In this document: positions 3,418 to 47,867 of the stretch, piece after piece
Numbering within the stretch: position 1 is the first letter of the stretch
Layout: the number at the start of each line of letters is the position of its first letter
Assembly (NCBI RefSeq): GCF_003060865.1
Contig: NZ_CP028918.1
Span: 1,124,001 to 1,188,000, forward strand
Direction of reading: 5' to 3'
Origin: Gemmobacter aquarius
GTDB lineage: Bacteria; Pseudomonadota; Alphaproteobacteria; Rhodobacterales; Rhodobacteraceae
Length of the DNA stretch: 64,000 nucleotides
The notes under the pieces: generated by a model
Database searches by the model: none
What the model saw: only the letters and a program-made list of their open reading frames with translations
What the model was told of the DNA's origin: nothing
Translations under genes and position numbers: made by a program

Positions 3418-3488
3418 AAATATCCTCGGGGGTGAGGCCGCAGGCCGAGGGGGCGGAAAGCCCCCTGAAATTATTCGCAGAATAATTT
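3418..3488 (+). repeat. Composite intergenic element, copy B, ending in a TTC-GCA-GAA hairpin
   Basis: AAATATCC (3418-3425), TCGGGGG, a variable part with GGCC-GCA-GGCC, hairpin GGGGGC-GGAAA-GCCCCC (3449-3465), then hairpin AAATTATTC-GCA-GAATAATTT (3468-3488, 9 perfect pairs). The same order of parts is found at 38182-38257 and 47794-47867. The last hairpin contains the stop codon and final codons of bchO on the other strand. Confidence 0.8.
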
Positions 3489-4349
3489 TTCTTGCTGGCC
3501 AAGCCAGGGCAATGCGGTTTCGGCGACTGTTTCGGCGGCTTCTTCGTGCAGCAGGTGTCCGTAGCCCGGAATTTCCGAGTACAGGGCGTTCGGCATTTGT
3601 CGTGCGGCTTCGGCCGAGACGCGCGCGGGCACTGCCTTGTCGCCGGTCGATGCGATGAGGAGGGTCGGCGTTTGCAGCCGTGGCAGGGCTGCCATCAACC
3701 CGTCGAGCCGCCATTGCGCCATCATGCCGAGCGTGCCTTCGACATGCGCGGAGTCGCGGACGAGGGCGAGGTATTGGCGCTGGCCTGTGGCGTCGAGCGG
3801 AGAGCCGGTCGAAGCGAGCAGGCGTCCGACGCTTTGCGGGTTGCCCCAGAGTTTCGACACCAGATGCGGCACGAAGGGGGCTGCGGCAAGGGCGCGGGCG
3901 AGCAGCGGGAACATGACGCCTGCCGCGCCTTCGAAGCTGCCAAGCGCCGCGTTTATGCCGATGACGGCCCTGACGGCCGCGCTTTGCGCCATGCGTAGCG
4001 CGATTGCGGCACCCGCCGAATGGCCGAGAATAAATGTCGGGGTCAGACCCATCGTCGCGCATAGCGTTGCGATGTCTTCGGCCATCGCATCCAGCCCGTA
4101 GCGGCTGCGGCTGCCGGGGCGGGTGAAGCCCTGACCGGGCAGGTCGGGCACGATCAGGTGGTAATGCGGGGCGAGCAGCGGGATGAGCGCGCGAAAGCTG
4201 TGGCCCGATCCGCCCGCGCCGTGCAGCATCAGCAGCGTCGGGCGGTCCTTGGGGCCTGTGTCGATGACGCACCAGTCATGCGGGCGGCTTTGCACGCGGC
4301 GGATGCTGTCCCGTCGGGGCCAGTCGGGGGGCATCCGAGACAGGTCCAT
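3471..4349 (-). CDS. bchO: Alpha/beta hydrolase BchO (Mg-chelatase operon)
   Basis: BchO-type alpha/beta hydrolase of 292 aa, encoded after bchI and bchD in phototrophic alphaproteobacteria and linked to Mg chelatase; its reaction is not established. The oxyanion HGAGGSGHS and the nucleophile elbow GHSAGA are visible, as is a late GYGHLLHEE with the likely catalytic His. ATG at 4349 begins MDLSRMPPDW one base after the bchD stop, so the genes are coupled; the frame is open further upstream only because it runs over bchD. The last residues KLFCE and the stop are encoded inside an intergenic hairpin repeat (3468-3488). Confidence 0.9.
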   Translation of the reverse strand: MDLSRMPPDWPRRDSIRRVQSRPHDWCVIDTGPKDRPTLLMLHGAGGSGHSFRALIPLLAPHYHLIVPDLPGQGFTRPGSRSRYGLDAMAEDIATLCATMGLTPTFILGHSAGAAIALRMAQSAAVRAVIGINAALGSFEGAAGVMFPLLARALAAAPFVPHLVSKLWGNPQSVGRLLASTGSPLDATGQRQYLALVRDSAHVEGTLGMMAQWRLDGLMAALPRLQTPTLLIASTGDKAVPARVSAEAARQMPNALYSEIPGYGHLLHEEAAETVAETALPWLGQQEKLFCE

Positions 4350-4350
4350 C

Positions 4351-6030
4351 CTAGCCGTCCAGCGCCGCGCCGAGGGCCGCGCTGAGCCGCCGGGCATCGG
4401 CGCGGGGCAGCGCGAGGTAGGGCGCGTCCATGGTTTGCGCGAGCAGGCGCAGGCCAGGTTGCGGGCGGTTTGCCACGTCGATCACCAGCGCAGGCGTACC
4501 TGTTGCACGGATCTGGCGGGCAAGGCGGCTGGCCTCGTCTTCCGCCTTGGCGCGGTCGGCGGTGCCGTCGAGCGCGATATTGCCGCGACCGTCGGTCAGG
4601 ATGGCGATGGTCGGTGTCAGCCCTCGCGCCTTGGCCTGTGCGGCCGTTGCCAGCGCCAGTTGCAGGGCCGAGGCGAGTGGTGTGCCGCCGCCGCCGGGAA
4701 CGCCTGCAAGGCGGCGCTTGGTTTGGACCAGCGAACGGGTGGGCGGCAGGATCAGTTCCGCTTGCGCGCCGCGAAAGGCCAGCAGGGCCACATGGTCGCG
4801 GCGGGCATAGGCGGCGGCGAGGAGGAGCTCGATGGCACCTTTGGCTTCGGCCAGACGGGCGAAGGCGGCGGAACCCGAGGCGTCGACCGCGAAGATCAAT
4901 ACGCGGTCCGAGGTTTCGCGGAAGCGTTTGACGCGCAGGTCGGACGCGCGGACGAGAAGCGTGGCATCGGGCCGATCGGTCTGGCGGCGGCGGAGCGGTT
5001 GCCACGGGGCCGCGGCGCGCAGCGTTGCAACAAGGTCGATGCGGGCACCCTGGGCCAGGCGGCCGGGGCGCGAGGGAAGCGGGCGACCGCGGCGGTTGCC
5101 GCTGTGGGCGGCACCGGAGCCTGTGGCCGATTTGGCGCTGCGGGCGGCGCGGCCTGCAGCGAGGGCTTCGAGCAGGTCTTGCGGTAGGGCGGCGAGCGCG
5201 GCTTCGACCATCATCTCGGTGGGCAGGGTGGCGGTGTCGGGCTGCGTTTCGCCCTGTGCGCTGTCGGGTTGGTCAGGGGTGGGGGGCGGCGGCGTCGCGT
5301 CTTGCGGCTGTCGGTCGGGCATGGGTGCCGCGCGGTGGGCGTAGACGAGTTCGGCGGCGGCGATCAGGTCTGCATCTGTCACTTCGCTGTGGCCTTGCCA
5401 TGCCGCATGGGCGCGGGCGGCTTTGGCGGCGAGGAGCGGCGCGCGAAGCGAGGCGATGCCGAGTTCGGCGGCGGCGCGGGTGAGTTGTTCGAGCGCTGCG
5501 GGCGGCACGATGAGTGCCGGCAAGGCGGCACGGGCGGCTGCCAGCCGTGCGGGGTCGGGTGTCGGGTCGGGGCTGTCGGACCACAGGTCGTCAGAAAGGT
5601 CGAGGAAGAGACCGAGGCGGTCGGTAAGCGCGGGAGGCAGGGCTTCGTCGGGTTCGGCCCCTTCGTCGACGGCGATCAGCGCATGGCCGGGGGTATCGAG
5701 CGCAGCCGCAAGGCGTGCCGACAGGCCTGCGGGGCAGCGCTCGGCCATGGTCAGGATCAGCGCGGAGGGGCGGGAAAGCAGCCCGCTTGTCAGGATTTGA
5801 CGGCCCGTGGCCAAGGTCGCCGCAAGGTCGAGGCCGCCATAAAGTGCGTCGTCGGCGATGGTCGGGTGCAGGCGGACAAGCGGGAGGGGCAGGGCGGTCA
5901 GCGCCGCAGTCACACGGTCGCGCAGGGGGCCGGAGCGGGCGCGGAGCCAGAGACCGCGCAAACCTGCGGGGTCGACGGCCAGCAGCGCCAGCGCGGTCTG
6001 TGAGCGTGTAGGGGCGGGTACTTCGGTCAG
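4351..6030 (-). CDS. bchD: Magnesium chelatase subunit D
   Basis: BchD (about 559 aa from 6030) forms the AAA+/integrin-I motor of Mg chelatase with BchI. Visible parts are a degenerate AAA+ N-terminal half, a proline/acidic linker around PPPPTPDQPD, and a C-terminal von Willebrand A domain with the MIDAS motif DASGS. The conserved N-terminus (ALLAVDPAGLRGLWLRARSGP) is in frame upstream of the first allowed start (TTG, 5961), but no ATG, GTG or TTG precedes it. The codon at 6030 is CTG, overlapping the bchI stop (CTGA), with a GAGGTG Shine-Dalgarno five bases upstream. I infer a CTG start or a base error there. Length then fits the family. Confidence 0.9.
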   Translation of the reverse strand: MTEVPAPTRSQTALALLAVDPAGLRGLWLRARSGPLRDRVTAALTALPLPLVRLHPTIADDALYGGLDLAATLATGRQILTSGLLSRPSALILTMAERCPAGLSARLAAALDTPGHALIAVDEGAEPDEALPPALTDRLGLFLDLSDDLWSDSPDPTPDPARLAAARAALPALIVPPAALEQLTRAAAELGIASLRAPLLAAKAARAHAAWQGHSEVTDADLIAAAELVYAHRAAPMPDRQPQDATPPPPTPDQPDSAQGETQPDTATLPTEMMVEAALAALPQDLLEALAAGRAARSAKSATGSGAAHSGNRRGRPLPSRPGRLAQGARIDLVATLRAAAPWQPLRRRQTDRPDATLLVRASDLRVKRFRETSDRVLIFAVDASGSAAFARLAEAKGAIELLLAAAYARRDHVALLAFRGAQAELILPPTRSLVQTKRRLAGVPGGGGTPLASALQLALATAAQAKARGLTPTIAILTDGRGNIALDGTADRAKAEDEASRLARQIRATGTPALVIDVANRPQPGLRLLAQTMDAPYLALPRADARRLSAALGAALDG

Positions 6031-7031
6031 GGCAGCACCTCGGTCACGGCGCGGATGACGCGGGCGGTCGATCCTGCCTCGTCCAGGGGGTCGCGGCGCA
6101 GGCGGTGCGACAGCGCCATGGGGGCCACGGATTTCAGGTGGATGCGGCCCACGGACTCGTCGCCCTCGAAGGCGGCGATGGCGCGGGCGGCGCGCAGAAG
6201 GGTAAGTTCACCGCGCAAGCCGTCGGACCCGATGGCGATACACAGGGCCGCGCAATCGTGCAGCACCGTGTTGGGGGTGTGCAGCGCGGGCAAGGCGGCG
6301 CGGGCGGCAAGGATGCGGTCGCGCAAGGCCATGTCTTGCGGGCGCCAAGTCTCGATGAAGGCGCCGTAATTCGTCTCATAGGCGTCGCGGCGGCGGATCA
6401 CCTCGACCCGCGTTTCGATGTCGCGCGGGCTGGTGACTTCAACCGACAGGCCGAAACGGTCGAGAAGTTGCGGGCGCAGCTCGCCTTCCTCGGGGTTGCC
6501 GGACCCGACGAGCACGAAGCGGGCGGGGTGGCGGATGGAAAGCCCCTCGCGTTCCACCACGTTCTCGCCCGATTGGGCCACGTCGAGCAGCAGGTCGACG
6601 ATGTGGTCTTCGAGCAGGTTCACCTCGTCTATGTAGAGATAGCCGCGGTTGGCGCGGGCAAGCAGGCCCGGCTCGAAGGCTTTCTCGCCGCGGGTCAGGG
6701 CGCGTTCGATGTCGAGCGCACCCACGACGCGGTCTTCGGTTACGCCGAGCGGCAGGTCGACGACGGGGGTTGGTTTGCGAATGATGCGGTCGGTCGTGCC
6801 CTGCGCCCAGTCGGGCACATCGGCGGGGCGGGCCGAATTGACGGGGCAGCCTTCGACGGCCTCGATTTCGGGCAGCAGGGCCGCGAGGGCGCGCACGGCG
6901 GTGGATTTGCCGGTGCCGCGGTCGCCAAAGACAAGGACGCCGCCGATGGCGGGATCGACCGCGGTCAGGATCATCGCCTGTTTCATGGCCTCTTGGCCGA
7001 CGATGGCGGAAAAGGGGAAGGGTTGTTTCAT
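6027..7031 (-). CDS. bchI: Magnesium chelatase ATPase subunit I
   Basis: BchI (334 aa) is the AAA+ ATPase that drives Mg insertion into protoporphyrin IX with BchD and BchH. The Walker A motif GDRGTGKS is at residues 36-43 and the Walker B segment GYLYIDEVNLL lies near residue 140. ATG at 7031 gives MKQPFPFSAIVGQE, the standard N-terminus. It sits second in the crtA-bchI-bchD-bchO operon; 133 bases separate it from crtA and contain four TTC-GAA hairpins, unlike the tight bchI/bchD and bchD/bchO junctions. No clear Shine-Dalgarno precedes the start. Confidence 0.95.
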   Translation of the reverse strand: MKQPFPFSAIVGQEAMKQAMILTAVDPAIGGVLVFGDRGTGKSTAVRALAALLPEIEAVEGCPVNSARPADVPDWAQGTTDRIIRKPTPVVDLPLGVTEDRVVGALDIERALTRGEKAFEPGLLARANRGYLYIDEVNLLEDHIVDLLLDVAQSGENVVEREGLSIRHPARFVLVGSGNPEEGELRPQLLDRFGLSVEVTSPRDIETRVEVIRRRDAYETNYGAFIETWRPQDMALRDRILAARAALPALHTPNTVLHDCAALCIAIGSDGLRGELTLLRAARAIAAFEGDESVGRIHLKSVAPMALSHRLRRDPLDEAGSTARVIRAVTEVLP

Positions 7032-7049
7032 GTCGACCGTCCGGCTGGC

Positions 7050-7159
7050 AGGATTATCTGCGAAAATCCTGTGGGGCGAATTTTCTGCGAAAATTCGGGA
7101 TGGGGCGTTTGATGATCCTTCGCAGAAGGATCGTTGACGTGATTTTTCGCAGAAAAATC
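7050..7159. repeat. Tandem array of four TTC-(TGC/GCA)-GAA hairpins between crtA and bchI
   Basis: Four hairpins lie in 110 bases: 7050-7070 (AGGATTATC/GAAAATCCT, one mismatch), 7077-7097 (CGAATTTTC/GAAAATTCG, perfect), 7114-7132 (GATCCTTC/GAAGGATC, perfect) and 7141-7159 (GATTTTTC/GAAAAATC, perfect). All keep the core TTC or ATC, a TGC or GCA triloop, and GAA. The arm sequences differ but pairing is kept, so structure rather than sequence seems to be conserved. They would be present in the crtA-bchI mRNA and could affect its processing or stability. Confidence 0.85.
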
Positions 7160-7164
7160 GTGCG

Positions 7165-7842
7165 TCATGCGGCGCGCTCCTGCATCAGCGGGGCGAGCGG
7201 GTCCTGGCCGTTCCAGGTTCCGGTGGCGCCGAGCAGGCGGAAGCGGGCGTAAAGCTCTTCGCGGAACCACTGGCCTTCGCGCACGGCGGCGATGGCGCGG
7301 CCATGCGGGCCGTCGCCACGGGCGAAATTGGCCATGCTCGCGGCATCGGGCCAGATCGAGAAGGTGACCTGATGCAAAAGCGGCAACTCCCCGATGCCGA
7401 TCTTGAAGGTGACGTTGGGGTCGCTGCCGATGGTGGCCGAAATCGAGGGGACACGGTTCCAGAAGCGCAGGGCGCGTGCCGGTTTGACCGTAGCGCGGGT
7501 CAGGGCGGCGAGGGGGCCGGTCGGGGCCGTTACGGGCGTGTCGGGAAGGAAGGGGTTGACCCCCGCCCATGCGCCGCGTGCCGAGACAGGGTCGAGGAAC
7601 ACGGTCCAGCTTTCGCGGGCCTTGCCGCGCCATGCCTGCCAGACGGGGCCGTTCGTGGTGCGGTCGCGGGCGGTCGCCTCGTCCGGCCAGACCGACAGGA
7701 TGGCCCAGACGCCCCAGTTCGGACGCGGGGTAAAGCCTTCGCCGGTGCCCGAGCCGCAGAGTTTCCAGAACAGGGCGCGTGATTCGCGGCGCAGCGCCAG
7801 ACGCGCCAAAGCCATCTGTCCGATGACCCACAGGCGGGGCAT
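7165..7842 (-). CDS. crtA: Spheroidene monooxygenase CrtA
   Basis: CrtA (225 aa from the first ATG) oxidises spheroidene to spheroidenone, a ketocarotenoid made under oxygen. Conserved stretches LWVIGQMALAR, GSGTGEGFTP, ESWTVFLDPV and HQVTFSIWPD are present. The family N-terminus (CLSLFRFDG) is encoded in frame upstream, to about 7890, but that frame has no ATG, GTG or TTG. An AAGGGG Shine-Dalgarno lies six bases before an ATC at 7884, so the true start may be non-canonical or the sequence may be wrong there. First gene of the crtA-bchIDO operon, divergent from crtI with two PpsR-type sites between them. Confidence 0.92.
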   Translation of the reverse strand: MPRLWVIGQMALARLALRRESRALFWKLCGSGTGEGFTPRPNWGVWAILSVWPDEATARDRTTNGPVWQAWRGKARESWTVFLDPVSARGAWAGVNPFLPDTPVTAPTGPLAALTRATVKPARALRFWNRVPSISATIGSDPNVTFKIGIGELPLLHQVTFSIWPDAASMANFARGDGPHGRAIAAVREGQWFREELYARFRLLGATGTWNGQDPLAPLMQERAA

Positions 7843-7918
7843 CAGGCCGTCGAAGCGGAAAAGGCTAAGGCAGACGGTCGGGATGATATGCCCCTTTTTG
7901 CGCGGCTGGGTGGCAATA

Positions 7919-7936
7919 TGTAAACCTAGTCTGACA
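7919..7936. promoter_or_regulatory. PpsR/CrtJ-type site 1, crtA-crtI intergenic region
   Basis: TGT-N12-ACA (TGT 7919-7921, ACA 7934-7936) matches the consensus bound by the redox/light repressor PpsR (CrtJ). A second site lies 57 bases further toward crtI, so both divergent genes are probably repressed aerobically. Confidence 0.8.
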
Positions 7937-7993
7937 TTTCCTTGCAGGCGAGGAAAGGAAAATCCGGTGATTTGCCGCCGTTAACGTCGCTAT

Positions 7994-8011
7994 TGTCAAT
8001 CAAACTAGACA
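7994..8011. promoter_or_regulatory. PpsR/CrtJ-type site 2, crtA-crtI intergenic region
   Basis: TGT (7994-7996), N12, ACA (8009-8011). It ends 15 bases before the crtI ATG, close enough to block transcription or initiation of crtI directly. PpsR tetramers typically use two such sites. Confidence 0.8.
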
Positions 8012-8026
8012 GTCTATCATCGGGGC

Positions 8027-10635: not shown

Positions 10636-10718
10636 CCCTTGCGGGCGGCAAATTGCGCGCTTGGACGGAACCCTGATCGGGGCTATGTCGCTGGGTCTGA
10701 CCAGAACGGAGCGGCCCG

Positions 10719-11195: not shown

Positions 11196-11211
11196 AGGTT
11201 TGACTGGCGGA

Positions 11212-11244: not shown

Positions 11245-11262
11245 GAGGGCAGAAAATGCGGG

Positions 11263-13764: not shown

Positions 13765-13770
13765 GTATGG

Positions 13771-24045: not shown

Positions 24046-25953
24046 ATGACTCCGATCCTTGACCGCGTATCCGGCCCTGCCGACCTCAAGGCCTTGACCG
24101 ATGGCGAGTTGGGCCGATTGGCGGGCGAGGTCAGGAACGAGGTGATACAGGTCGTGTCCGAAACCGGCGGGCATCTTGGGTCGTCGCTGGGGGTGGTCGA
24201 GTTGACCGTGGCGATCCATGCGGTCTTCGACACGCCGCGCGACAAGCTGATCTGGGATGTGGGCCACCAGTGCTATCCGCACAAGATATTGACCGGACGG
24301 CGCGAACGGATGCGGTCCTTGCGCCAGTCGGGCGGGGTTTCGGGCTTTACCAAGCGGGCCGAGTCGGAGTTCGACCCGTTCGGCGCGGCGCATAGCTCGA
24401 CCTCGATTTCCGCGGCCCTGGGCTTTGCGATGGGGCGCGAGATGGGGCAACCCGTGGGCGATACCATTGCGGTGATCGGCGACGGCGCGATCACGGCAGG
24501 CATGGCCTATGAGGCGATGAACCACGCAGGCCATCTGGGCAAGCGGCTGTTTGTTATCCTGAACGACAACGACATGTCGATTGCGCCGCCCGTGGGTGCC
24601 TTGTCGAAATACCTCAACGAGATTGCGGCCAAGGGGCCGTTGTCTCTGCTGAAAGCGGCGGCCGAGGAATTCGAGACGCGCCTGCCCGGACCCATGCGCG
24701 ACGGTGCGCGGCGGGCGCGGGCGCTGGTGACCGGCATGCCCGGCGGCGGCACACTGTTCGAGGAGCTTGGGTTTTCATATATCGGGCCGATCGACGGGCA
24801 TGATATGGGGCAGGTGCTGGCCACGCTGCGGGCGGCGCGGGCGCGGGCGACGGGGCCGGTCTTGATCCATGCCGTGACGGTCAAGGGCAAGGGCTTTGCG
24901 CCTGCCGAAAGCGCTGCGGACAAATACCACGGCGTGTCCAGGTTCAACCCGCTGACGGGCGAGCAGGCCAAGTCGAAGTCGAATGCGCCGGCCTATACCA
25001 CGGTCTTCGGCAATGCGCTGAGGGATGAAGCCGCGCGCGATCCGCGCGTGGTGGCGATCACGGCGGCGATGCCTTCGGGAACAGGGCTGGACATCATGGC
25101 GCGGCGCTTTGCGGCGCGGGTGTTCGACGTGGGGATTGCGGAACAACATGGCGTTACATTCGCCGCCGGAATGGCTGCGGCGGGGCTGAAGCCGTTCTGC
25201 GCGATCTATTCGACCTTCCTGCAGCGTGGCTATGACCAGATCGTGCATGACGTGGCGCTGCAAGGTCTGCCTGTGCGCTTTGCCATCGACCGCGCGGGGC
25301 TGGTGGGCCAAGACGGGGCGACCCATGCGGGGGCTTTCGACATCGGCTTTCTGGCCAACCTGCCCGGCTTTACCGTGATGGCGGCAGGAGACGAGGCAGA
25401 TCTTGTCCACATGGTTGCCACCGCCGTGGCGCATGACGGCGGGCCTATCGCATTCCGCTATCCGCGGGGCGAGGGGATGGGGCTTGACCTGCCCGAGCGC
25501 GGTGTTGCTTTGCCGCTGGGCAAGGGGCGTGTGCTGCGCGAGGGGACGGACGCGGCGATCCTGTCGTACGGGGCGCATCTATCCGAGGCGCTGGCCGCGG
25601 CCGAGGCGCTGGCGGGCGAGGGGATTTCGGTGACCGTGGCCGATGCGCGTTTCGCCAAGCCGCTGGATACCGCGCTGATCGACCAGTTGATCGCGCATCA
25701 CGGGGCTTTGGTGACGTTGGAAACAGGGGCCACTGGGGGATTCGGGGCGCTGGTGCTGCACCACCTCGCCAACTCCGGCGGGCTGGAGCGGGGCCGCGCG
25801 ATCCGCACGATGACGCTGCCCGACCGCTTCATCGACCAGGCGTCACCGGCGCAGATGTATGACTGGGCGGGGCTTTCGGCCAAGGATATTGTTCGGGTGG
25901 TGCGGCAGGCGCTGGGGCGTGAGGCGGCTAAATCGGGCTTGCGGGTCGTGTGA
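24046..25953 (+). CDS. dxs: 1-deoxy-D-xylulose-5-phosphate synthase
   Basis: Dxs (635 aa) condenses pyruvate and glyceraldehyde-3-phosphate with thiamine diphosphate, the first step of the MEP pathway that supplies IPP/DMAPP for carotenoids and the phytyl tail. The TPP-binding [18 protein letters not shown] lies near residue 145, [13 protein letters not shown] in the N-terminal domain, and [19 protein letters not shown] in the transketolase pyrimidine domain. The start [15 protein letters not shown] is standard. The position after pufX matches Rhodobacter. An intrinsic terminator lies in its leader. Confidence 0.96.
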
Positions 25954-25962
25954 GCCGCCAAC

Positions 25963-25981
25963 GATTTTTCTGCGAAAAATC
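25963..25981. repeat. TTC-TGC-GAA hairpin, dxs 3' side
   Basis: GATTTTTC-TGC-GAAAAATC, eight perfect pairs with a three-base loop, ten bases after the dxs stop. Same arm sequence as copies at 7141 and 40213. Confidence 0.85.
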
Positions 25982-25990
25982 AGTCGGTGG

Positions 25991-26032
25991 AGCGGTCCCT
26001 GAATTTTCGCGAGAAAATTCGTTGGGACCGCT
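25991..26032. repeat. Two-stage hairpin between dxs and the FAH-family gene
   Basis: Outer stem AGCGGTCCC (25991-25999) with GGGACCGCT (26024-26032), inner hairpin GAATTTTC-GCGA-GAAAATTC (26001-26020). The inner part is a variant of the TTC-GAA family with a four-base loop. It lies between convergent genes, seven bases from the stop of the minus-strand gene, and may terminate both. Confidence 0.75.
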
Positions 26033-26038
26033 GTGCCG

Positions 26039-26880
26039 TCAGGCGCGGCCGACAGTCTGGCGCTGCTCGCCCAGACCTTCGATACCCAGACGCATGACCT
26101 CGCCGCCCTTCAGGTAGATCGGGTCTGGCTTTTGGCCCATGCCCACGCCGGGGGGCGTGCCGGTCGAGATCACGTCGCCGGGGTTGAGCGACATGAACTG
26201 GCTGACGTAATGCACCAGATGCCGGACGCCGAAGACCATCGTTTTCGTGCTGCCGTTCTGGTAGCGCTTGCCGTCGACTTCCAGCCACATCGACAGGGCC
26301 TGCGGATCGGGCACTTCATCCGCCGTGACCAGCCAGGGGCCGATCGGGCCAAAGGTGTCGCAGCCCTTGCCCTTGTCCCAGGTGCCGCCGCGTTCGATCT
26401 GGAATTCGCGTTCGGACACATCGTTGATCACGCAATAGCCGGCCACATGTTCCATCGCCTCGGCTTCCGACACGTAAGAGGCGCGTTTGCCGATGACCAC
26501 GCCAAGCTCGACCTCCCAGTCGGTCTTGACCGAGTTGCGCGGTATCAGCACGTCGTCATTCGGGCCGACGATGGCCGAATTGGCCTTCAGGAAGATCACC
26601 GGTTCTTTCGGCACCGGCAGGTTCGATTCCGCGGCGTGGTCGGCATAGTTCAGGCCGATGCAGATGAATTTGCCGACCGACCCGACACAGGGCCCGATGC
26701 GTGAAGGGGCAAGTTCGGGCAAGCTCGACGGATCGATGCCGCGCAGTTTGGCAAGGCCCTCGGGGGCCAGCACAGAACCAGCGATATCGGGGACGATGCC
26801 GGCAAGGCTGCGGATCTTGCCCGAGGCGTCCATCATCGCCGGCACTTCGGCCCCGCCTCGCCCACACGCATGAGTTTCAT
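26039..26880 (-). CDS. Fumarylacetoacetate hydrolase-family protein, one-base frameshift near the 5' end
   Basis: FAH-fold hydrolase of 280 aa after correction; relatives include ureidoglycolate lyase, fumarylpyruvate hydrolase and hydroxyhepta-dienedioate isomerase, and the sequence does not decide between them. [36 protein letters not shown] (metal-ligand Glu) and [15 protein letters not shown] are visible. ATG at 26880 follows a GGGAGA Shine-Dalgarno and gives [10 protein letters not shown], then breaks; a fifth G in the four-G run within the ninth to tenth codons (about 26851-26854) would join it to [12 protein letters not shown] read this as a sequencing error. A 12-bp palindrome (26950-26961) lies upstream. 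Confidence 0.85.
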
Positions 26881-30056: not shown

Positions 30057-30083
30057 AAAACGCGCCCCTGCGGGCGCGTTTTT
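30057..30083 (+). terminator. Rho-independent terminator after the DUF2497 gene
   Basis: AAAA, CGCGCCC (30061-30067), loop CTGC, GGGCGCG (30072-30078), TTTTT. The A-run before and T-run after make it bidirectional, serving also the minus-strand gene that ends at 30103. Confidence 0.92.
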
Positions 30084-37365: not shown

Positions 37366-37409
37366 AAATATCCTCGGGATGGGTCCGGGAAGGGCAGACG
37401 GCCCTTTCC
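37366..37409 (+). repeat. Composite intergenic element, copy D
   Basis: AAATATCC (37366-37373), TCGGGATGGGTCC, hairpin GGGAAGGGC-AGACG-GCCCTTTCC (37387-37409, one G-T pair). It lacks the TTC-GAA hairpin. It lies 22 bases after the GATase stop and may act as its 3' end. Confidence 0.65.
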
Positions 37410-37489: not shown

Positions 37490-38179
37490 ATGAAACGCTC
37501 GCGCATCAATGACATCATGGCGGCGGCGGACGAGATGATCCGCCACTACGGCTTCGTGCTGCCGCCCTTTGCCTATTGGACGCCGGACGAGTTCAAGGCC
37601 AAGGCAGCACAGGCGGGGCGGATCATCGATGCCCGCATGGGCTGGGACATCACCGATTTCGGGGCCGAGAAGTTCGACGAGATGGGGCTGTTCCTCTTCA
37701 CCCTGCGCAATGGCCAATTGGCTGATCTCAAGCGCGGCGGGGGCATGTGCTATGCCGAAAAGCTGCTGATCTCGCGGCAGGACCAATTGTCGCCCACGCA
37801 CACGCACTTTCTAAAGGCCGAAGATATCATCAACCGGGGCGGGGCCACGCTGGTGATCGAGCTTTACGGATCGGACGACAAAGGCAATTTCGCGCCGGAT
37901 CGTGGCGGCATGGTGCGCTGTGACGGGCTCGATGTGCCCTATACGCCGGGGATGAAGCTGAAACTCGCGCCGGGCGAAAGCGTCACGCTGATGCCCGGCG
38001 ACTGGCACGCCTTTTGGGGCGAGGGCGGCGATGTGCTGATCGGCGAGGTCTCGACCGTGAACGACGACCTGATCGACAATATCTATGTCCAGCCCATCGG
38101 CCGCTTCGCCGAGATCGAGGAAGACGTGGCGCCGACGCATCTGCTCGTCAGCGATTACGACAGCTGGCTGCCCCGCTGA
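37490..38179 (+). CDS. D-lyxose ketol-isomerase family cupin
   Basis: A 229-residue cupin matching D-lyxose isomerases (YdaE/EcSI branch), which interconvert D-lyxose and D-xylulose or D-mannose and D-fructose with a metal. The metal-ligand pattern is in LSPTHTHFLKAEDI (HTH plus Glu) and LMPGDWHAFWG; KLLISRQDQLS precedes it. Start MKRSRINDIMAAADEMI is standard. Co-orientation with the GATase is probably coincidental; no sugar transport genes are adjacent. Confidence 0.85.
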   Translation: MKRSRINDIMAAADEMIRHYGFVLPPFAYWTPDEFKAKAAQAGRIIDARMGWDITDFGAEKFDEMGLFLFTLRNGQLADLKRGGGMCYAEKLLISRQDQLSPTHTHFLKAEDIINRGGATLVIELYGSDDKGNFAPDRGGMVRCDGLDVPYTPGMKLKLAPGESVTLMPGDWHAFWGEGGDVLIGEVSTVNDDLIDNIYVQPIGRFAEIEEDVAPTHLLVSDYDSWLPR

Positions 38180-38181
38180 CC

Positions 38182-38257
38182 GGTTTTTCTGCGAAAAATC
38201 GTGGGGAGCTTTCCGCCCCCCCCCACGGCGTTGCGCGCCTTCCCCCCGAGGATATTT
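38182..38257 (-). repeat. Composite intergenic element, copy E, with TTC-GCA-GAA hairpin
   Basis: Minus-strand reading: AAATATCC (38257-38250), TCGGGGGG, a GGCGCGC-AAC-GCC part, a G-run/CGGAAAG/CCCC hairpin, then GATTTTTC-GCA-GAAAAACC (38200-38182, one G-T pair). Same order of parts as copies B and F. Confidence 0.78.
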
Positions 38258-38283
38258 GAGAGGGGGCGATGTCCATTGTCCGA

Positions 38284-40062: not shown

Positions 40063-40212
40063 TCGCGTTTTCTCCTGAAAGGGATGGGGTCAGAGAAAAG
40101 CAACTCCCTTGCAGTCGAGCACGCAGAGCGCGCCGATGCGCCGCCACTGGGCGATCCAGCCCGCGGGGCGGCACAGCGGCGGCAAGGGGCGCCGCGGCGG
40201 GGGGGTGGGCGT

Positions 40213-40231
40213 GATTTTTCGCAGAAAAATC
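40213..40231. repeat. TTC-GCA-GAA hairpin between kynureninase and tryptophan dioxygenase
   Basis: GATTTTTC-GCA-GAAAAATC, perfect, 17 bases downstream of the kynureninase stop on its strand. It would be in a shared transcript of the two genes, as between crtA and bchI. Otherwise the 185-base gap carries no gene. Confidence 0.85.
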
Positions 40232-40247
40232 GTGCGCCTGCGGGTCA

Positions 40248-41444
40248 TCAGGTCACCTTGGCTCGTGCCTTGAATTCGGGCCGGTCCCAAAGGCGGTTCT
40301 GCATGATGTCGGACAGGATGGTTACCGCTGCCTGAACCTCGGCCTCGCCGATGTAAAGCGGGGTGAAGCCGAAGCGCAAAATGTCGGGGGCGCGGAAGTC
40401 GCCGATCACGCCGCGCGAGATCAGGGCCTGCATGATGGCGTAGCCTTCGGCGTGGCGGAAGCTGACCTGTGATCCGCGCATGTCATGGGCGCGGGGCGTG
40501 GCAAGCGTCAGGTCGGGGCATGCGGCCTCGACCCCTGCGATGAACAGATCGCCGAGTTCCAGCGAGCGGGCGCGCAAGTCGCTCATGTCGACATGGTCCC
40601 AGACATCGAGCGCAGCCTCCAATGCGGCCAGTTGGAGCACCGGTGGAGTACCCACGCGCATCCGTTCCGACCCGCGACCGGGGCGGTAGCCAAGGTCGAA
40701 GGCGAAAGGAGATTCGTGGCCCAACCAGCCCGAAAGCGCAGGGCGGGCGGTTTCGGCGTGGCGCGGGGCGACGTAGATGAAGGCCGGGCCGCCGGGGCCC
40801 GAGTTGAGGTATTTGTAGCTGCATCCGACCGCGAAATCGGCACCGACCCGCGCCAGATGCACGGGCAGCGCGCCTGCGGAATGTGCAAGGTCCCAGATCG
40901 TCAGCGCGCCCATGGCATGGGCCTTGGCGGTGATCGCCGCCATGTCATGCTTGCGGCCGGTGCGGTAATCGACCTCGGTTATCAGGGTGACTGCGACGGT
41001 TTCGTCGATCGCGTCCATCACCTCGTCGGGCGTGACGGTCTTGAGCGCATAGCCATTGCCCAAGGTCCGCACGAGGCCATCGGCCATGTAAAGATCGGAG
41101 GGGAAGTTGCCGGTATCAGACAGGATCACGCGGCGGGTGGGGTTCATTTCAAGCGCCGAGGCGAGGGCTTGGTAGACCTTGATCGACAGCGTGTCGCCCA
41201 TCACCACCGTGCCGGATTCCGCCCCGATCAGTTTCGCGATCCTGTCACCGACCCGCGCGGGTTGGTCCATCCATCCGGCCTTGTTCCAGCCGGTGATCAG
41301 CATCTGGCCCCATTCCGCCTGCACCGTCTGCGCGACCCGTGCCGCCGCCGCGACCGGCAGCGGCCCGAGCGAATTGCCGTCGAGGTAAATGATCCCCTGC
41401 GGCAGGTCGAACATGGCACGGGTGGCGGTAAAGTCGGTGGTCAT
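40248..41444 (-). CDS. kynU: Kynureninase
   Basis: Kynureninase (398 aa) splits kynurenine to anthranilate and alanine with PLP. The N-terminal IYLDGNSLGPLP and the PLP-region ADFAVGCSYKYLNSGPGGPAF (Lys about residue 230) are diagnostic, with DLAHSAGALPVHL before it. ATG 41444 chosen by homology; the open frame upstream to 41912 is not conserved. With the dioxygenase downstream it gives two of the three steps from tryptophan to anthranilate; a formamidase is not nearby. Confidence 0.95.
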   Translation of the reverse strand: MTTDFTATRAMFDLPQGIIYLDGNSLGPLPVAAAARVAQTVQAEWGQMLITGWNKAGWMDQPARVGDRIAKLIGAESGTVVMGDTLSIKVYQALASALEMNPTRRVILSDTGNFPSDLYMADGLVRTLGNGYALKTVTPDEVMDAIDETVAVTLITEVDYRTGRKHDMAAITAKAHAMGALTIWDLAHSAGALPVHLARVGADFAVGCSYKYLNSGPGGPAFIYVAPRHAETARPALSGWLGHESPFAFDLGYRPGRGSERMRVGTPPVLQLAALEAALDVWDHVDMSDLRARSLELGDLFIAGVEAACPDLTLATPRAHDMRGSQVSFRHAEGYAIMQALISRGVIGDFRAPDILRFGFTPLYIGEAEVQAAVTILSDIMQNRLWDRPEFKARAKVT

Positions 41445-41664
41445 TGCAGGCTCCAGATCGTCACAGATCGTTATTTGCCGCGCAGGGTGCCCGTTCGCGG
41501 CAGCGGGCACAACGGGCAGATTGCGGCGCAAATGGCGAAAATGTCGTGCGATATGTCGGATTCTCGCGGGAAGGTCTTGCCAATCGCCGCGTTGGGCTGA
41601 ACAAGAAACACCCGCGCGAAGCGGGACGCAGCACAGAGATGCCATGCAAGGGGGACGCAAAGCT

Positions 41665-42108: not shown

Positions 42109-42184
42109 GCTGTGACTGAAAGTCTTTGAAATATTGTTGCGCGATGCTAAGTCGCGTCTGGCAGAATCTTACGGGGGAGACAGC

Positions 42185-43762
42185 GTGAAGATCGGGGCAC
42201 CGAAAGAGATATTCGAGGGCGAGAACCGCGTCGCGATGACGCCGGATTCAGCCGTTGCGCTGGCCAAGCTGGGGCACACTTGCGTCATTGAAAGCGGCGC
42301 GGGGCTGAAGGCGGGCTTTTCCGACGCAACCTATGAGGCGGCAGGGGTCGAGGTGGTGAAAACCGCTGCGGCGCTGTTCAAGGCTGCCGATGTGGTGGTC
42401 AAGGTGCGCGGACCCGAGCCCAAGGAAGCCAAGATGCTTCGTCAGGGCCAGACGCTTATCAGCTTTTTCTGGCCTGCCCAGAATGCCGAACTGCTGGAAA
42501 CCTGCAAGGCGCAGGGGGCCACCGTCATCGCCATGGACATGGTGCCGCGCATTTCCCGCGCCCAGAAGATGGACGCGCTGTCCTCGATGGCCAATATCGC
42601 CGGCTACCGCGCCGTGATCGAGGCGGGGTCCAACTTTGGCCGCTTCTTTACCGGTCAGGTGACGGCGGCGGGCAAGGTGCCGCCTGCCAAGGTGCTGATC
42701 GTCGGTGCCGGCGTGGCCGGTCTGGCTGCTATCGGCACGTCGGTGTCCTTGGGTGCGATCGTGCACGCCTTCGACGTGCGGCCCGAAGTGGCCGAGCAGA
42801 TCGAATCGATGGGCGCTTCCTTCGTCTATCTCGAATTCGACGCCAGCGAATTGCCCGATGGCGCGGCGACGGGTGGCTATGCCGCCCCGTCCAGCCCCGC
42901 TTTCGCGGCAAAGCAATTGGCCAAGTTCCGCGAGCTTGCGCCCGATATGGACATCGTGATCACCACCGCTCTGATCCCCGGCCGGCCCGCGCCGAAGCTG
43001 TGGACTGCCGACATGGTGGCGATGATGAAGCCCGGCTCGGTCGTGGTCGATTTGGCCGCCGAGCGGGGCGGCAACTGCGACCTGACGGTGGCAGACCAGA
43101 AGATCGTCAGCGACAATGGCGTGACCATCGTCGGCTACACCGATTTCCCCAGCCGGATGGCAGCACAGGCCAGCACGCTCTATTCCACCAACATCCGCCA
43201 CATGCTGACCGACCTTACGCCCAAGAAGGACGGCGTGATCTTCCATAACATGGAGGATGACGTGATCCGCGGCGCCACCGTCACCCATGACGGCGCGGTC
43301 ACCTTCCCGCCACCGCCGCCGAAGATCGCGGCGATTGCGGCTGCCAAGCCCAAGGAAAAGGTCAAGGAACTGACGCCCGAGGAAAAGCGGGCCAAGGAAA
43401 CCGCCGCCTTCAAGGCACAGACCCGCAATCAGGTGGGGATGCTGCTGGGCGGCGGCGCGCTGATCCTGCTGGCGGGGCTTTACGCTCCGGCATCGTTCAT
43501 GAGCCACTTCATCGTCTTCGTCCTGTCTGTCTATGTCGGCGTTCAGGTGATCTGGAACGTGTCGCACAGCCTGCACACGCCGCTGATGGCGGTGACCAAC
43601 GCGATCTCGTCGATCATCATCCTTGGTGCGCTGATGCAGATCGGGTCGGGCAACTGGCTTGTGGTGATCCTTGCCGCCTTGTCGGTCTTCATGGCCGGCA
43701 TCAACATTTTCGGTGGCTTCATGGTGACGCGTCGCATGCTCGCCATGTTCCAGAAGTCTTAA
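42185..43762 (+). CDS. pntA: NAD(P) transhydrogenase alpha subunit
   Basis: PntA (525 aa) carries the NAD(H)-binding domain I and part of the membrane domain of the proton-pumping transhydrogenase. It starts with GTG ([20 protein letters not shown]) after GGGGGAGACA. The nucleotide fold has [23 protein letters not shown] near residue 170, and RQD-loop related features follow. The C-terminal part has membrane helices after a charged linker ([16 protein letters not shown]). The unsplit form with a fused membrane segment fits this length; pntB begins ten bases after the stop. Confidence 0.95.
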
Positions 43763-43772
43763 GGGGCGCGGA

Positions 43773-45221
43773 ATGGAATACGGATTTACAACCGCTGCCT
43801 ATGTCGTTGCGGCAGTTCTTTTCATCCAGTCGCTGGGCGGCCTTTCGGGGCAGGAAAGCGCCAAGCGGGCCGTCTGGTACGGCATCGTGGGCATGGCGCT
43901 GGCCGTTGCCGCCACGGTTTACGGACCCGGTGCGGGCAACTGGCTGATCTCTCTCGTCATGATCGCCGCGGGCGGTGTGATCGGCTGGTATGTGGCGCAA
44001 AAGGTCCAGATGACCGAGATGCCGCAACTTGTGGCGGCGATGCACAGCCTTGTGGGCCTTGCAGCTGTGTTCATCGGCTACAATACGCATATCGAACTCG
44101 CTGTCGTCCAAGGCATGGACGCGGCGGCGCAAGCGGCGGCGACGGGCTTTGCCGCGACGCTGGTGCACAAGCTGCATGACCCGATGGCGGGCGCACTGGT
44201 CTCGATCCTGCGTGTGGAAACCTTCCTTGGCGTGTTCATCGGGGCTGTCACCTTTACCGGATCGGTCATTGCCTTCGGCAAGCTGGCGGGCAAGGTCGAC
44301 GGCAAAGCGAAAAAGCTGCCGGGCGGGCATGTGCTGAACGCGGGTGCTGCGATCGTTTCGCTGGTGCTGCTGTTCGTCTATCTCTCGACCGGCTCGACAC
44401 TGGCGCTTGTGGTCATGACGCTGGCCGCTCTGTTCATCGGCTATCATCTGATCATGGGCATCGGTGGTGCCGACATGCCCGTGGTCGTGTCGATGCTGAA
44501 CAGCTATTCCGGCTGGGCAGCGGCGGCGATCGGCTTTTCGCTGTCGAACGATTTGCTGATCGTGGTGGGCGCGCTGGTCGGGTCTTCCGGTGCGATCCTG
44601 TCTTACATCATGTGCAAGGCGATGAACCGGTCCTTCGTTTCGGTCATCCTTGGCGGTTTCGGTGGCACCACCGGCCCTGCGATGGAAGTGACCGGCGAAC
44701 AGATCGCCATCGACGCCGAAGGTGTAGCGGCCGCGCTGAACGATGCGGATTCGATCATCATCATTCCGGGCTACGGCATGGCGGTGGCACAGGCGCAGCA
44801 ATCGGTGTCGGAACTGACGCGCAAGCTGCGCGCCAAGGGCAAGACCGTGCGTTTCGCCATCCACCCCGTTGCAGGGCGCTTGCCGGGGCACATGAACGTG
44901 CTGCTGGCCGAGGCGAAGGTGCCCTACGACATCGTGCTGGAAATGGACGAGATCAACGACGATTTCCCCACGACCGATGTGGCGATCGTCATCGGCTCGA
45001 ACGACATCGTGAACCCCGCCGCACAGGAAGACCCCAACAGCCCCATTGCCGGCATGCCGGTTCTGGAATGCTGGAAGGCCAAGCAGGTCTTCGTGTCGAA
45101 GCGCGGGCAGGGCACCGGCTATTCGGGCATCGAGAACCCGCTGTTCTTCAAGGAGAACACGCGCATGTTCTACGGCGACGCGAAAAAGTCGCTCGACGCG
45201 CTGTTGCCGATGATCGACTGA
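43773..45221 (+). CDS. pntB: NAD(P) transhydrogenase beta subunit
   Basis: PntB (482 aa) has about nine membrane helices and the C-terminal NADP(H)-binding domain [22 protein letters not shown] and [20 protein letters not shown] are domain III signatures, and [20 protein letters not shown] completes it. A perfect hairpin follows the stop by eight bases. Confidence 0.95.
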
Positions 45222-45229
45222 GAAATGAC

Positions 45230-45250
45230 GGGCGGCCCCTAGGGCCGCCC
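45230..45250 (+). terminator. Hairpin after pntB
   Basis: GGGCGGCCC (45230-45238), loop CTA, GGGCCGCCC (45242-45250): nine perfect G/C pairs. No T-run follows, so termination may need Rho or it may protect the message. Confidence 0.65.
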
Positions 45251-45277
45251 CGAACTGTTCCGTTTCCTTGGTGCCCG

Positions 45278-46330
45278 ATGTTTAAATGGTTTGTCCGGAT
45301 CGCGGTGGCTTGCGCAGCGTTGGTGGCAGCCTTGCTGGGTCTTGTCGCGCTGATCGACACCCGCGTGGGTGATATCCCGTCCGAAGCGCCCGCTTACCGC
45401 GTAACCCACATCGCTGCCGCGCATCGACCAGACGGTTTGGACCTGCACCTGTGGTATCCGGCCTCCGCAGGGCAGATTACTCTGATCGGACAGAACGCCC
45501 TGTTCTATGGCTTCCACGCAAGACGTGACGCAGTCGGCGATGGCATTTCCCATCCACTCGTCCTTTTGTCCCATGGTTCCGGTGGCAACGCCGAGCGTCT
45601 TGGCTGGATCGGTTCCGCCCTCGCGTCAAAGGGCATCATCGTCGCCGCAGTCAATCATCCCGGAACGACATCGGGGGATAGCCAGCCAAGCAGGACGGTC
45701 ATGCCTTGGGAGCGGACCGAGGACTTGTCGACCATTCTTGATTATCTTCAAGCGGATGCACCCCAAGGCATGGTGCCCGATATGAACCGTGTCGGAGCAT
45801 TGGGCTTTTCTTTGGGTGGCGCATCGGTCCTTTTGTCCGCGGGCGCGCGACTGTCAAAGGATGATTTCATCCAGTATTGCGCTGCGAATGCCGGCCAAGA
45901 CGATTGCGGATGGTTGGCCGAAGGCGGTGTCGATTTCAGCCAGATAGACGCGCCGAAGTATGAAAGAGACAATCGCGATCAAAGGATCAAAGCTGTCGTG
46001 GCGATCGATCCCGCGTTGACCCGTGCCATGCGCAAACACAGCCTGACCCGCCTTCCGCCGTCCCTCGTCATCAACCTGGGTTCGGATGGGGAAATACCGC
46101 TCGCGATGCAAGCCGACGGACTCGCTGCCGTAAATCCGGCTATCGAATACCGGACGGTTCCGGGGGCGCGCCACTTCAGTTTTCTCGCGCGGTGCAGTCT
46201 GCTTGGTGTCGTGATGATTGCCCTGGCAGGCGATGATAACATCTGCTCGGACCGTGGGCTCCGCGACCGGGGCGAGATACAGGCCGAACTTGTGCAGATG
46301 ATCGGAACGTTTCTGACGGACAGGTTGTAG
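45278..46330 (+). CDS. Alpha/beta hydrolase with N-terminal membrane anchor (dienelactone hydrolase-like)
   Basis: A 350-residue hydrolase. The N-terminus is one hydrophobic helix (about residues 5-27, WFVRIAVACAALVAALLGLV), so it should be anchored and face the periplasm. LVLLSHGSGGNAE is the oxyanion stretch and VGALGFSLGGASVLL the nucleophile elbow; SFLARC near the end holds a likely late His. Base composition is slightly less GC-biased at third positions than neighbours, with TTA/ATC-rich patches, so it may be a more recent arrival. No Shine-Dalgarno is clear. Confidence 0.75.
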   Translation: MFKWFVRIAVACAALVAALLGLVALIDTRVGDIPSEAPAYRVTHIAAAHRPDGLDLHLWYPASAGQITLIGQNALFYGFHARRDAVGDGISHPLVLLSHGSGGNAERLGWIGSALASKGIIVAAVNHPGTTSGDSQPSRTVMPWERTEDLSTILDYLQADAPQGMVPDMNRVGALGFSLGGASVLLSAGARLSKDDFIQYCAANAGQDDCGWLAEGGVDFSQIDAPKYERDNRDQRIKAVVAIDPALTRAMRKHSLTRLPPSLVINLGSDGEIPLAMQADGLAAVNPAIEYRTVPGARHFSFLARCSLLGVVMIALAGDDNICSDRGLRDRGEIQAELVQMIGTFLTDRL

Positions 46331-46496
46331 GCGCGGGCAAACCGGAAAACTGCAAAAGCAATGTGCATCGGGCCTTTCCGTACGGCGGGGCCTTTGCTTT
46401 TCTGCAACAACCCCATTGCATACCCGCGTATTCCTGCAATTTCATGGAGATGAAGCGCAGCCCGCCCTATCTGACAGGAAACGCCACAGGACCTCC

Positions 46497-47780
46497 ATGC
46501 CAAGCATTTCAGATCACCCGCTGCGCTACGCCCTTGTGAACGAGTTGCACGCGCGGCCTTTCCCGTCGCTCGAAGCGCCGTGCCATGCGGTCTATGTTGC
46601 GATCAAGGAACCGGTTGCTGCCGCGAACCGTGACCGTGGTCTAGACCGCGCCCATCTTCTGGCGCTTCTGGACCGCAACGGATCGGCCCATCCGCAGCCC
46701 GATGCCACGCATTTTTCGGGCAGCATCGGGCGGGCCGAACTGAAGTGGGAAAGCCACACCGAATTCGTGACCTATTCCGCCTTTGTCAAAGGCGTCTCCG
46801 ACCGCCCCTTTGCCCCCGCGGAAGCCGAGGTGTTCCCCGAAGACTGGCTTGCCGCAGCGCCCGGAAAGCGCGTCTGTTCGGTGCTGATCCGGGTCGAGAA
46901 CCTGCCCGATGACGAAGCGGGCATCATGAACAAGCTCGAGGACTGGTTCGTTCCCGAAAGCCTTGCGGTCAGCCGCGTGGTCGATGGCGCGGCAATCGTC
47001 GCGGGTGATTTCCGCATCGATCCGGCGGGGCACATGCGTTTCGCGGTCTTTGTGCGCCCGGGCACGGGTGAGCGCCGCATCGGGCGCATCGTGCAGCGCC
47101 TGTGCGAGATCGAGACTTACCGTTCGGTGTCGATGCTGGGGCTGATGCGGGCGCGGCAGCTGACCACGCGGCTCAATGCGCTTGATCCGCAGCTTTCGGG
47201 GCTGGTCTCGGCGCTCGATACGACCGAGCGGTCACCCGAAGCGGCGCTGCACGAGTTGTTGACCATCTCGTCGGAACTCGAAAGCCTTGCGGTCAACTAC
47301 ACCTTCCGCTTTGGCGCGACCGCCGCCTATGAAGCCATCGTGACCCAACGCATCAGCGCCCTGCGCGAAGAGCGGATTCAAGGCCGCCAGACCTTTGGCG
47401 AATTCATGATGCGCCGCTATGATCCTGCCATGCGGACCGTGAAATCGGCCGAGGCGCGGCTTCGCAGCATGGCGGAACGGGCGCAGCGCGCTGCCGAATT
47501 GCTTCGGACGCGGGTCGATGTCGAACGCTCGGCGCAGAACCAGAAACTGCTGGAAAGCATGGATCGCCGCGCCGACCTGCAACTGCGCCTGCAGCGCACG
47601 GTCGAGGGGTTGTCCACCGTGGCGATCAGCTATTATGCGGTGAACCTTGCCGCCTATGCGCTGGAACCCTTGGCGCACCCGTTCCACATCAGCCACGGCG
47701 TGCTGATGGCGATGCTGACGCCGCTCGTGCTTTTGGGCGTCTGGCTGATGGTGCGTCGCATCCGCAACCACTTCGACTGA
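46497..47780 (+). CDS. DUF3422 family protein
   Basis: A 427-residue protein with the N-terminal signature HPLRYALVNELHARPFPSL and two C-terminal membrane helices (about residues 370-420, ending VRRIRNHFD). The C-terminal third before them is coiled-coil-like with a long Arg/Ala-rich helix. DUF3422 proteins are widespread in alphaproteobacteria; no function is known to me. The ATG at 46497 follows CAGGACCTCC. An intergenic repeat starts 14 bases after its stop. Confidence 0.85.
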   Translation: MPSISDHPLRYALVNELHARPFPSLEAPCHAVYVAIKEPVAAANRDRGLDRAHLLALLDRNGSAHPQPDATHFSGSIGRAELKWESHTEFVTYSAFVKGVSDRPFAPAEAEVFPEDWLAAAPGKRVCSVLIRVENLPDDEAGIMNKLEDWFVPESLAVSRVVDGAAIVAGDFRIDPAGHMRFAVFVRPGTGERRIGRIVQRLCEIETYRSVSMLGLMRARQLTTRLNALDPQLSGLVSALDTTERSPEAALHELLTISSELESLAVNYTFRFGATAAYEAIVTQRISALREERIQGRQTFGEFMMRRYDPAMRTVKSAEARLRSMAERAQRAAELLRTRVDVERSAQNQKLLESMDRRADLQLRLQRTVEGLSTVAISYYAVNLAAYALEPLAHPFHISHGVLMAMLTPLVLLGVWLMVRRIRNHFD

Positions 47781-47793
47781 TGTCACGCTGGAA

Positions 47794-47867
47794 AAATATC
47801 CTCGGGGGGTGAGCCCCGCAGGGGCGAGGGGGCGGAAAGCCCCCCTCGATTTTTCGCAGAAAAATCG
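47794..47867 (+). repeat. Composite intergenic element, copy F, with TTC-GCA-GAA hairpin
   Basis: AAATATCC (47794-47801), TCGGGGGG, TGAGCCCCGCAGGGGCGA variable hairpin, GGGGGC-GGAAA-GCCCCC (47828-47844), hairpin CGATTTTTC-GCA-GAAAAATCG (47847-47867, nine pairs). It lies between convergent genes and ends one base before the permease stop codon. Confidence 0.8.

Follow-up and report, generated by a model that had tools for sequence, protein, structure and literature searches.

What are the short, AT-rich hairpins that recur at gene ends in an otherwise GC-rich stretch of bacterial DNA? The stretch analyzed here, which we call the window (G000:C1:1124001-1188000; 64,000 nt, 64.9% GC), comes from a genome, G000, that comprises 4.2 Mb in four contigs, with a main contig of 3.69 Mb, and that belongs to the Rhodobacteraceae as judged by its named dxs neighbors. 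An earlier note, made from the window alone, had described ten hairpins of one design with a TTC/loop/GAA core. We confirm all ten as real and as members of a large family of oriented, structure-conserved hairpins, which lie at gene ends, carry several kinds of reinforcement, and recur in other genera. We tentatively propose, at slightly less than an even chance, that this high-copy family, whose layout is like that of repetitive extragenic palindromes (REPs), is cis-acting and functions as transcribed RNA at mRNA 3' ends.

Hairpin copies in the window and in the genome

Each of the ten hairpins is present where it had been reported. The core, described as constant, holds in nine of them but not in hairpin 7050-7070, which has an ATC/GAA tip and an A-A mismatch; the 4-base loop ascribed to 26001-26020 was seen, and a "TGC" loop and a "GCA" loop belong to the same element viewed from opposite strands. 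The motif is far commoner than expected by chance: the tip with its flanking A or T, WTTCTGCGAAW, has 122 copies in G000 (61 on each strand), against 1/0 for the reversed control. A covariance-model search of the whole genome, as the earlier note had suggested, was run with a model built from 39 G000 copies and returned 143 matches, 141 on the main contig and 2 elsewhere; its E-values are rough, and some of the 143 are one palindrome scored on both strands. In the window, we counted 13 perfect hairpins (8-bp arms, loop of 3-4 nt), 8 of which have the TTC tip, compared with a mean of 4.8 (maximum, 11) in 40 first-order Markov windows, where hairpins with the TTC tip averaged 0.025 (maximum, 1).

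Elements were surveyed in 74 stretches, namely, the window and 73 stretches fetched around hits, which do not constitute a blind survey of locations. The search rule, which missed 7050-7070 owing to its A-A mismatch, yielded 130 elements, 128 of them with stems of at least 7 bp. Stems are AU-rich, nearly every G000 element has a loop of 3 nt, and the hairpins mostly measure 19-21 nt.

Conservation of the fold

In the 39 G000 copies, 98.7% of the stem cells are paired, and double changes occur at five of the eight stem pairs, a figure reached by none of 500 shuffles; 15 of the 22 doubly changed cells correspond to a single A-T/T-A swap at stem position 3. Compensation is also seen between species. 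Clusters with equal number and order of elements in G000 and in its sister genome, G003, provided 25 orthologous element pairs, in which 190 of 200 stem pairs are unchanged; among the 10 changed pairs, 8 differ on both sides with pairing kept, 1 became a wobble, and 1 is broken. The arms thus covary across the genome copies, and the proposal that their covariation indicates selection on a DNA or RNA fold is upheld by the doubly changed pairs and by the compensated ortholog changes. Ortholog arms are 95.5% identical and the 10-nt flanks 50% and 44%, versus 90%, 37%, and 33%, respectively, when elements are paired at random.

A subset of elements is extended at its base. The stem is preceded by AC and followed by A in 54 G000 and G003 elements, and across the resulting 3x1 internal loop these form an outer stem with a mean of 3.69 bp, versus 1.31 bp in shuffled sequences (maximum of 1.89 in 500 shuffles). 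This outer stem is of the GC type and varies in sequence among copies; in 12 of the 54 elements, no outer pair forms in the 3x1 register. Further subclasses possess C-rich flanks or a GC hairpin immediately downstream.

Location and orientation

Of the 128 elements whose stems reach 7 bp or more, 124 lie outside genes according to a home-made codon-model caller applied to the G000 stretches, and two of the remaining four look like chance hairpins, not members of the family. The extragenic elements occupy convergent gaps in 51 cases and divergent gaps in 4, while 39 are sense and 30 antisense in tandem gaps. With TGC placed on the coding strand, the 90 elements that have an upstream sense gene lie at a median of 16 nt past its stop codon, and lone elements in convergent gaps are closer to the sense stop codon in 17 of 19 cases. 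Neighbors up to 350 nt apart are arranged +- 25 times, -+ 4 times, ++ 7 times, and -- 8 times. In the window, eight of the ten hairpins follow a gene in sense, seven of them starting 0-32 nt past the stop codon and 3468-3488 overlapping it; the hairpins at 7050 and 7077 are upstream of an opposite-strand gene of the Mg-chelatase ChlI type (6027-7031) and make up the facing half of a four-hairpin array. These counts agree with the original impression that the hairpins sit between genes or at gene ends, mostly on the 3' side.

Tandem and facing sets

Same-strand neighbors within 60 nt are separated by 7-10 nt in 17 of 18 cases in G000 and in 7 of 7 in G003, the gap being mostly 8 nt, which corresponds to a 27-nt period; facing neighbors are 1-40 nt apart. 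Identical arms are found in 2 of 17 tight facing pairs in G000 and 2 of 8 in G003 (pooled, 4/25), versus 9 of 12 and 8 of 12 pairs at 61-320 nt (pooled, 17/24; Fisher P = 1.5e-4 for the pooled comparison of tight and distant facing pairs). Measured against the pool alone, the avoidance of shared arms in tight facing pairs is not significant (3.9 expected in G000 and 2.6 in G003).

The double unit TTCTGCGAA-N16-20-TTCTGCGAA occurs in 6 of 394 family genomes, which represent six different genera, with no match for the reversed control; the counts are 14 in G000, 16 in G127, 22 in G449, 2 each in G114 and G363, and 1 in G412. In G127, which belongs to another genus, the tandem period is 26-28 nt, and eight of nine fetched stretches with the TGC tip have one or more double units facing a hairpin or double unit over a short gap; the spacers of these arrays vary and the hairpins are alike. 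The units of G449, seen in nine stretches, are mostly in convergent gaps. G127 also contains many dispersed copies of a perfect palindrome, TTTTCACGCGTGAAAA (e.g., in L436 and L439), whose sequence is unlike that of the TGC hairpins. In G161 (L465-L470, L437, and L446), intergenic tandem AT-rich hairpins have a period of about 26 bp and a self-complementary loop, GTAC (GTC/GAC in one stretch), and represent a sister design that differs in its tip.

Another short sequence, either GAGGATATTT or GAGTATTT, is present 55 times in the stretches from G000, with 54 of the copies between genes. The GAGTATTT box mostly continues as g.gCAAaGGTGAA, and the box family is often followed by a AAGGTGAA-like sequence; a box-related pattern gave 10 matches in 80 named dxs loci and none for its reversed control. 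Box-element relations within 160 nt are same-strand downstream in 25 cases, opposite-strand downstream in 2, and opposite-strand upstream in 16. The box follows 13 of 23 elements in distant pairs and 12 of 46 single elements; since it follows only 2 of 55 elements in tight sets and none of the 26 with an outer stem, two architectures seem to be alternatives, one compact, with an outer stem or in a tight set, and one extended, in which the box comes mostly 40-85 nt after the hairpin.

Evolution across relatives

For 45 of the 80 G000 clusters, a flank is represented in the G003 stretches that were fetched, and for 41 a G003 element is adjacent to the match, adjacency being defined as a distance of at most 450 nt from where the best flank match stops. 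This point is over 250 nt away from the G000 element for 4 of the 41 clusters, and the number or orientation of elements sometimes differs. Of 120 control gene ends free of elements, 72 have a G003 flank and 4 an adjacent G003 element, a single flank and a stricter alignment rule having been used for this control. The place of the element is kept while the flanks turn over.

The dxs gene end (window 25953-26039) could be compared in 17 of the 19 genus genomes, and nine of them (G000, G003, G013, G005, G006, G007, G017, G018, and G014) have facing pairs or arrays there. At the same end, G002, G008, and G010 (L224, L218, and L219) carry facing GGATGGGC..GCCCATCC palindromes, mostly with adjoining CTACG/CGTAGG, G011 has a GC hairpin, and G012 has a long C/G hairpin; no hairpin of the AT-rich type was found at the dxs end of G009, G015, or G016. 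Loops differ by species, with TGC in G000, TGC and TGGC among the listed G006 sites, and a mixture of other loops at the sites listed for G005 and G010. When the 80 named dxs loci were scanned, 5 proved to hold perfect AT-rich hairpins whose tip contains TC, in no case as the TTC-TGC-GAA tip. In viral contigs, TTTTTCTGCGAAAAA matches at least 120 stretches, with one match each among the 80 listed.

Relation to known families

Under the broad definition quoted in PMC12306157, REPs are extragenic, palindromic, 14-40 nt long, united by a shared motif, and present in many copies, a description that the hairpins fit (124 of 128 extragenic, mostly 19-21 nt, 122 copies against 1 for the reversed control). 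REPs so defined are also usually transcribed, and the hairpins may be so too, as their orientation past stop codons indirectly suggests. PMC3733652 describes REP families as forming facing pairs and clusters, for the most part on the downstream side of genes, and CGTC REPs as mainly alphaproteobacterial, with stems of 8-9 bp, loops of 4-5 nt, and no known transposase. The family shares with REPs and bacterial interspersed mosaic elements (BIMEs) of the GTAG and CGTC super-families its short, high-copy extragenic palindromes, its location downstream of genes, its facing pairs, and its clusters. Unlike them, it has no tag and, in nearly all G000 copies, a 3-nt loop; it also includes an outer-stem subclass of variable sequence and a fixed 27-nt same-strand tandem, and it occupies places common to species with compensatory changes.

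Assignment to the named REP types was rejected. For GTAG REPs or REPINs, GTAG abuts none of 224 stems and its complement CTAC abuts 2; for CGTC REPs, CGTC abuts 1 and its complement GACG 2 of the 224, the CCA expected as a tail follows 2 and TGG, on the other strand, 14, and nearly all G000 loops are shorter than 4-5 nt. For REPs driven by a RAYT transposase, Y1_Tnp scored above the cut-off in none of the 19 genus genomes, with one sub-cut-off match in G008, whereas 5 of 14 control genomes were positive.

As covarying cis structures of RNA-like character, the hairpins resemble the structured RNAs of Rfam. Nothing in the whole window matched Rfam 15 at the gathering threshold, in line with the earlier note, whose author knew of no named family; the array region 6950-7250 gave three weak matches only, far below gathering, and no match up to E = 1 came from three G127 array stretches. 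Across six G000 loci, the single match above gathering was RF02940 (COG3860 RNA) at L030 1378-1431(-), with 57.6 bits; it is beside an element, some 65 nt ahead of the central hairpin of that locus. A literature search with the 19-mer sequence returned no paper; among the listed matches to TTCTGCGAAAA, titles mostly concerned Leishmania work and otherwise unrelated subjects; and none of the papers listed for Term-seq, REPs, terminators, and stem-loops in Rhodobacter or the Rhodobacteraceae describes the family, as judged by titles and the start of abstracts. Within these searches, the family looks unnamed and without a published description.

Proposed function and alternatives

We infer from the anatomy that the hairpins act as structures of the mRNA 3' end whose tip is recognized by a factor. 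In our working model, a unit just past the stop codon would fold as an 8-bp AU-rich stem with a UUC-UGC-GAA tip. Its reinforcement would come from one of three structures: a GC outer stem across an AAC/A internal loop, a GC hairpin that follows, or another hairpin spaced at the 27-nt period. Facing sets would serve both strands. The structure may mark, make, or protect the mRNA 3' end by blocking 3'-to-5' exonucleases, RNA polymerase arriving from either side, or both, a putative trans-acting RNA-binding factor may bind the tip, and the distinct arms in tight sets would let each hairpin fold alone. REP-type 3'-end stabilizers of Escherichia coli, in which a hairpin past the stop codon stalls 3' exonucleases, would be alike in this proposed mode of action.

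An RNA fold fits because of the orientation past stop codons, the compensatory changes, and the differing arms in tight sets. Hairpins in single-stranded DNA are possible; orientation favors RNA over DNA, and the wobble test is not decisive. Wobbles were counted by hand from the element lists, non-AT-type hairpins having been dropped first, and among single deviations at stem positions 1-6, 11 fall on the UGC strand and 1 on the other (P = 0.006).

Several observations weigh against an RNA element of mRNA 3' ends. When elements with two deviations are added, the wobble counts at positions 1-6 become 13 versus 3, and over all positions they are 12 versus 10, with no asymmetry; the pooled counts are symmetric because stem position 7 has C-A nine times and T-G once. 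When the outer-stem test is extended to all elements, 2 of 200 shuffles score as high in G000 and 133 of 200 in G003, and since the signal is strong in the former and absent in the latter, the outer stem is a trait of a subclass. Three of seven window folds reach z <= -2.7; the other four range from -0.27 to -1.60. The orientation bias of lone elements in tandem gaps is weak (17 sense versus 8 antisense; P = 0.11), 30 of the 124 extragenic elements are antisense in such gaps, as are two G449 units, and the eight G127 stretches with facing double units comprise 4 convergent gaps, 3 tandem gaps with two-sided arrays, and 1 divergent gap. The family is patchy, with 3 to 122 tips per genome in the 19 genus genomes, and 8 of the 17 compared genomes have no member at the dxs end. 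Finally, the hairpins have no U-tract, and canonical terminators occur no more than 150 nt away from 6 of the 69 gene ends that bear an element and from 11 of the 108 that do not.

This last comparison also bears on the idea that the hairpins are ordinary intrinsic transcription terminators, which we consider very unlikely. Bidirectional intrinsic terminators sit between convergent genes, and the hairpins share with them this location, the place just past stop codons, and the facing layout; they differ in having AU-rich stems, no U-tract, and a conserved tip. We accordingly rejected the usual form, a GC-rich stem with a U-tract, given that the stems are AU-rich and that canonical terminators are equally rare whether or not a gene end bears an element. 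A palindromic double-stranded DNA site, at which a nucleoid, roadblock, or insulator protein would read TTCTGCGAA, would account for the recurrence of a 9-bp tip with differing arms across several genera and for AT-rich sites that are conspicuous in a window of 65% GC; such a 9-bp site, however, requires neither compensated palindromic arms nor a covarying outer stem nor a gene-linked orientation, and we regard this explanation as improbable.

A repeat of the REP/BIME type deserves more weight, although we still judge it unlikely. Here, hairpins in single-stranded DNA or cruciforms would be spread by a transposase acting in trans or homogenized by gene conversion, with insertion bias setting location and orientation. 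High copy number, 19- to 21-bp palindromes, extragenic location, and facing pairs and clusters are all as expected, as are loops that differ by species and the other palindromes at the dxs end in G002/G008/G010, G011, and G012, and facing hetero-pairs are typical of REPs (PMC3733652). The absence of Y1_Tnp/RAYT above the cut-off in the genus genomes, the near absence of abutting GTAG and CGTC, the sites common to G003 in 41 of 80 clusters, and the varied spacers between similar hairpins in G127, which are unlike a freshly copied block, all speak against it.

An extension of the proposed RNA role, which we find doubtful, is a genome-wide code at mRNA 3' ends. More than 100 mRNA ends would share the UUC-UGC-GAA tip, read by a dedicated RNA-binding factor; loops (UGC, UGGC, and others) would drift together in each species as the factor changes, and arms would be orthogonal in arrays so that same-strand hairpins 27 nt apart could be co-bound. 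To our knowledge, the definition of mRNA 3' ends in GC-rich bacteria with few U-tract terminators is poorly known. Among 177 terminal gene ends in the G000 stretches, which were chosen around hairpins, a simple search for a GC stem with a U-tract no more than 150 nt from the gene end found a canonical terminator at 17, and 69 have a sense hairpin of the family. The family offers about 120 natural replicates in which place and fold persist even as sequence and loop drift from one species to the next, and a case of REP-like repeats with compensatory evolution at the level of orthologs, not mere copying.

Features of the window

The four-hairpin array lies between the ChlI-type gene and a gene at 7165-7842(-). 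On the plus strand, outer hairpin 1 (AGGATTATC-TGC-GAAAATCCT, 7050-7070), with its single A-A mismatch, is matched by a G003 element with a perfect stem (GGATTTTC/GAAAATCC), and an 8-nt gap separates its 8-bp core stem from that of inner hairpin 2 (CGAATTTTC-TGC-GAAAATTCG, 7077-7097). On the minus strand, inner hairpin 3 (GATCCTTC-TGC-GAAGGATC, 7114-7132) and outer hairpin 4 (GATTTTTC-TGC-GAAAAATC, 7141-7159) are 32 and 5 nt past the stop codon of gene 7165-7842; a 5-bp outer stem, TGACG/CGTCA, surrounds hairpin 4 across a CAC/A internal loop (7135-7167, minus strand) and includes the stop codon.

At the dxs end, hairpin GATTTTTC-TGC-GAAAAATC (25963-25981, plus strand) is 9 nt past the stop codon of dxs (24046-25953, plus strand). 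The minus-strand hairpin 26001-26020, GAATTTTC-TCGC-GAAAATTC, has the 4-nt loop, is 18 nt past the stop codon of an FAA-hydrolase gene (26039-26836, minus strand), and is enclosed by a 9-bp outer stem, AGCGGTCCC/GGGACCGCT, across an AAC/A internal loop (25991-26032, minus strand; fold of -28.9 kcal/mol, z = -6.45). A hairpin with a 4-bp outer stem, GGCG/CGCC, is found 16 nt past a kynureninase gene (40248-41444, minus strand) at 40213-40231 on the same strand, with the arms GATTTTTC-TGC-GAAAAATC.

Three hairpins are followed on the same strand by the GAGGATATTT box, at 40-47 nt. Hairpin AAATTATTC-TGC-GAATAATTT (3468-3488, minus strand) overlaps the stop codon of an alpha/beta-hydrolase gene (3471-4295, minus strand); immediately sense-downstream lies a GC-rich hairpin, AGGGGGC-TTTCC-GCCCCCT on the minus strand (3448-3466), and the box lies 40 nt downstream (3418-3427, minus strand). 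Hairpin CGATTTTTC-TGC-GAAAAATCG (47847-47867, minus strand) abuts the end of an ABC-permease gene (47868-48707, minus strand), its G003 ortholog shows a compensated T-A to A-T change, and it is likewise followed immediately by a GC-rich hairpin (47825-47848, minus strand) and, 43 nt downstream, by the box (47794-47803, minus strand). The third, GGTTTTTC-TGC-GAAAAATC with one G-T pair (38182-38200, plus strand), starts 1-2 nt past a D-lyxose isomerase gene (37490-38179, plus strand), with the box 47 nt downstream (38248-38257, plus strand). The fourth window copy of the box is at 37366-37375 on the minus strand. At 30057-30082, an 11-bp hairpin, AAAACGCGCCC-CTGC-GGGCGCGTTTT, whose foot carries A- and T-tracts, resembles a bidirectional canonical terminator.

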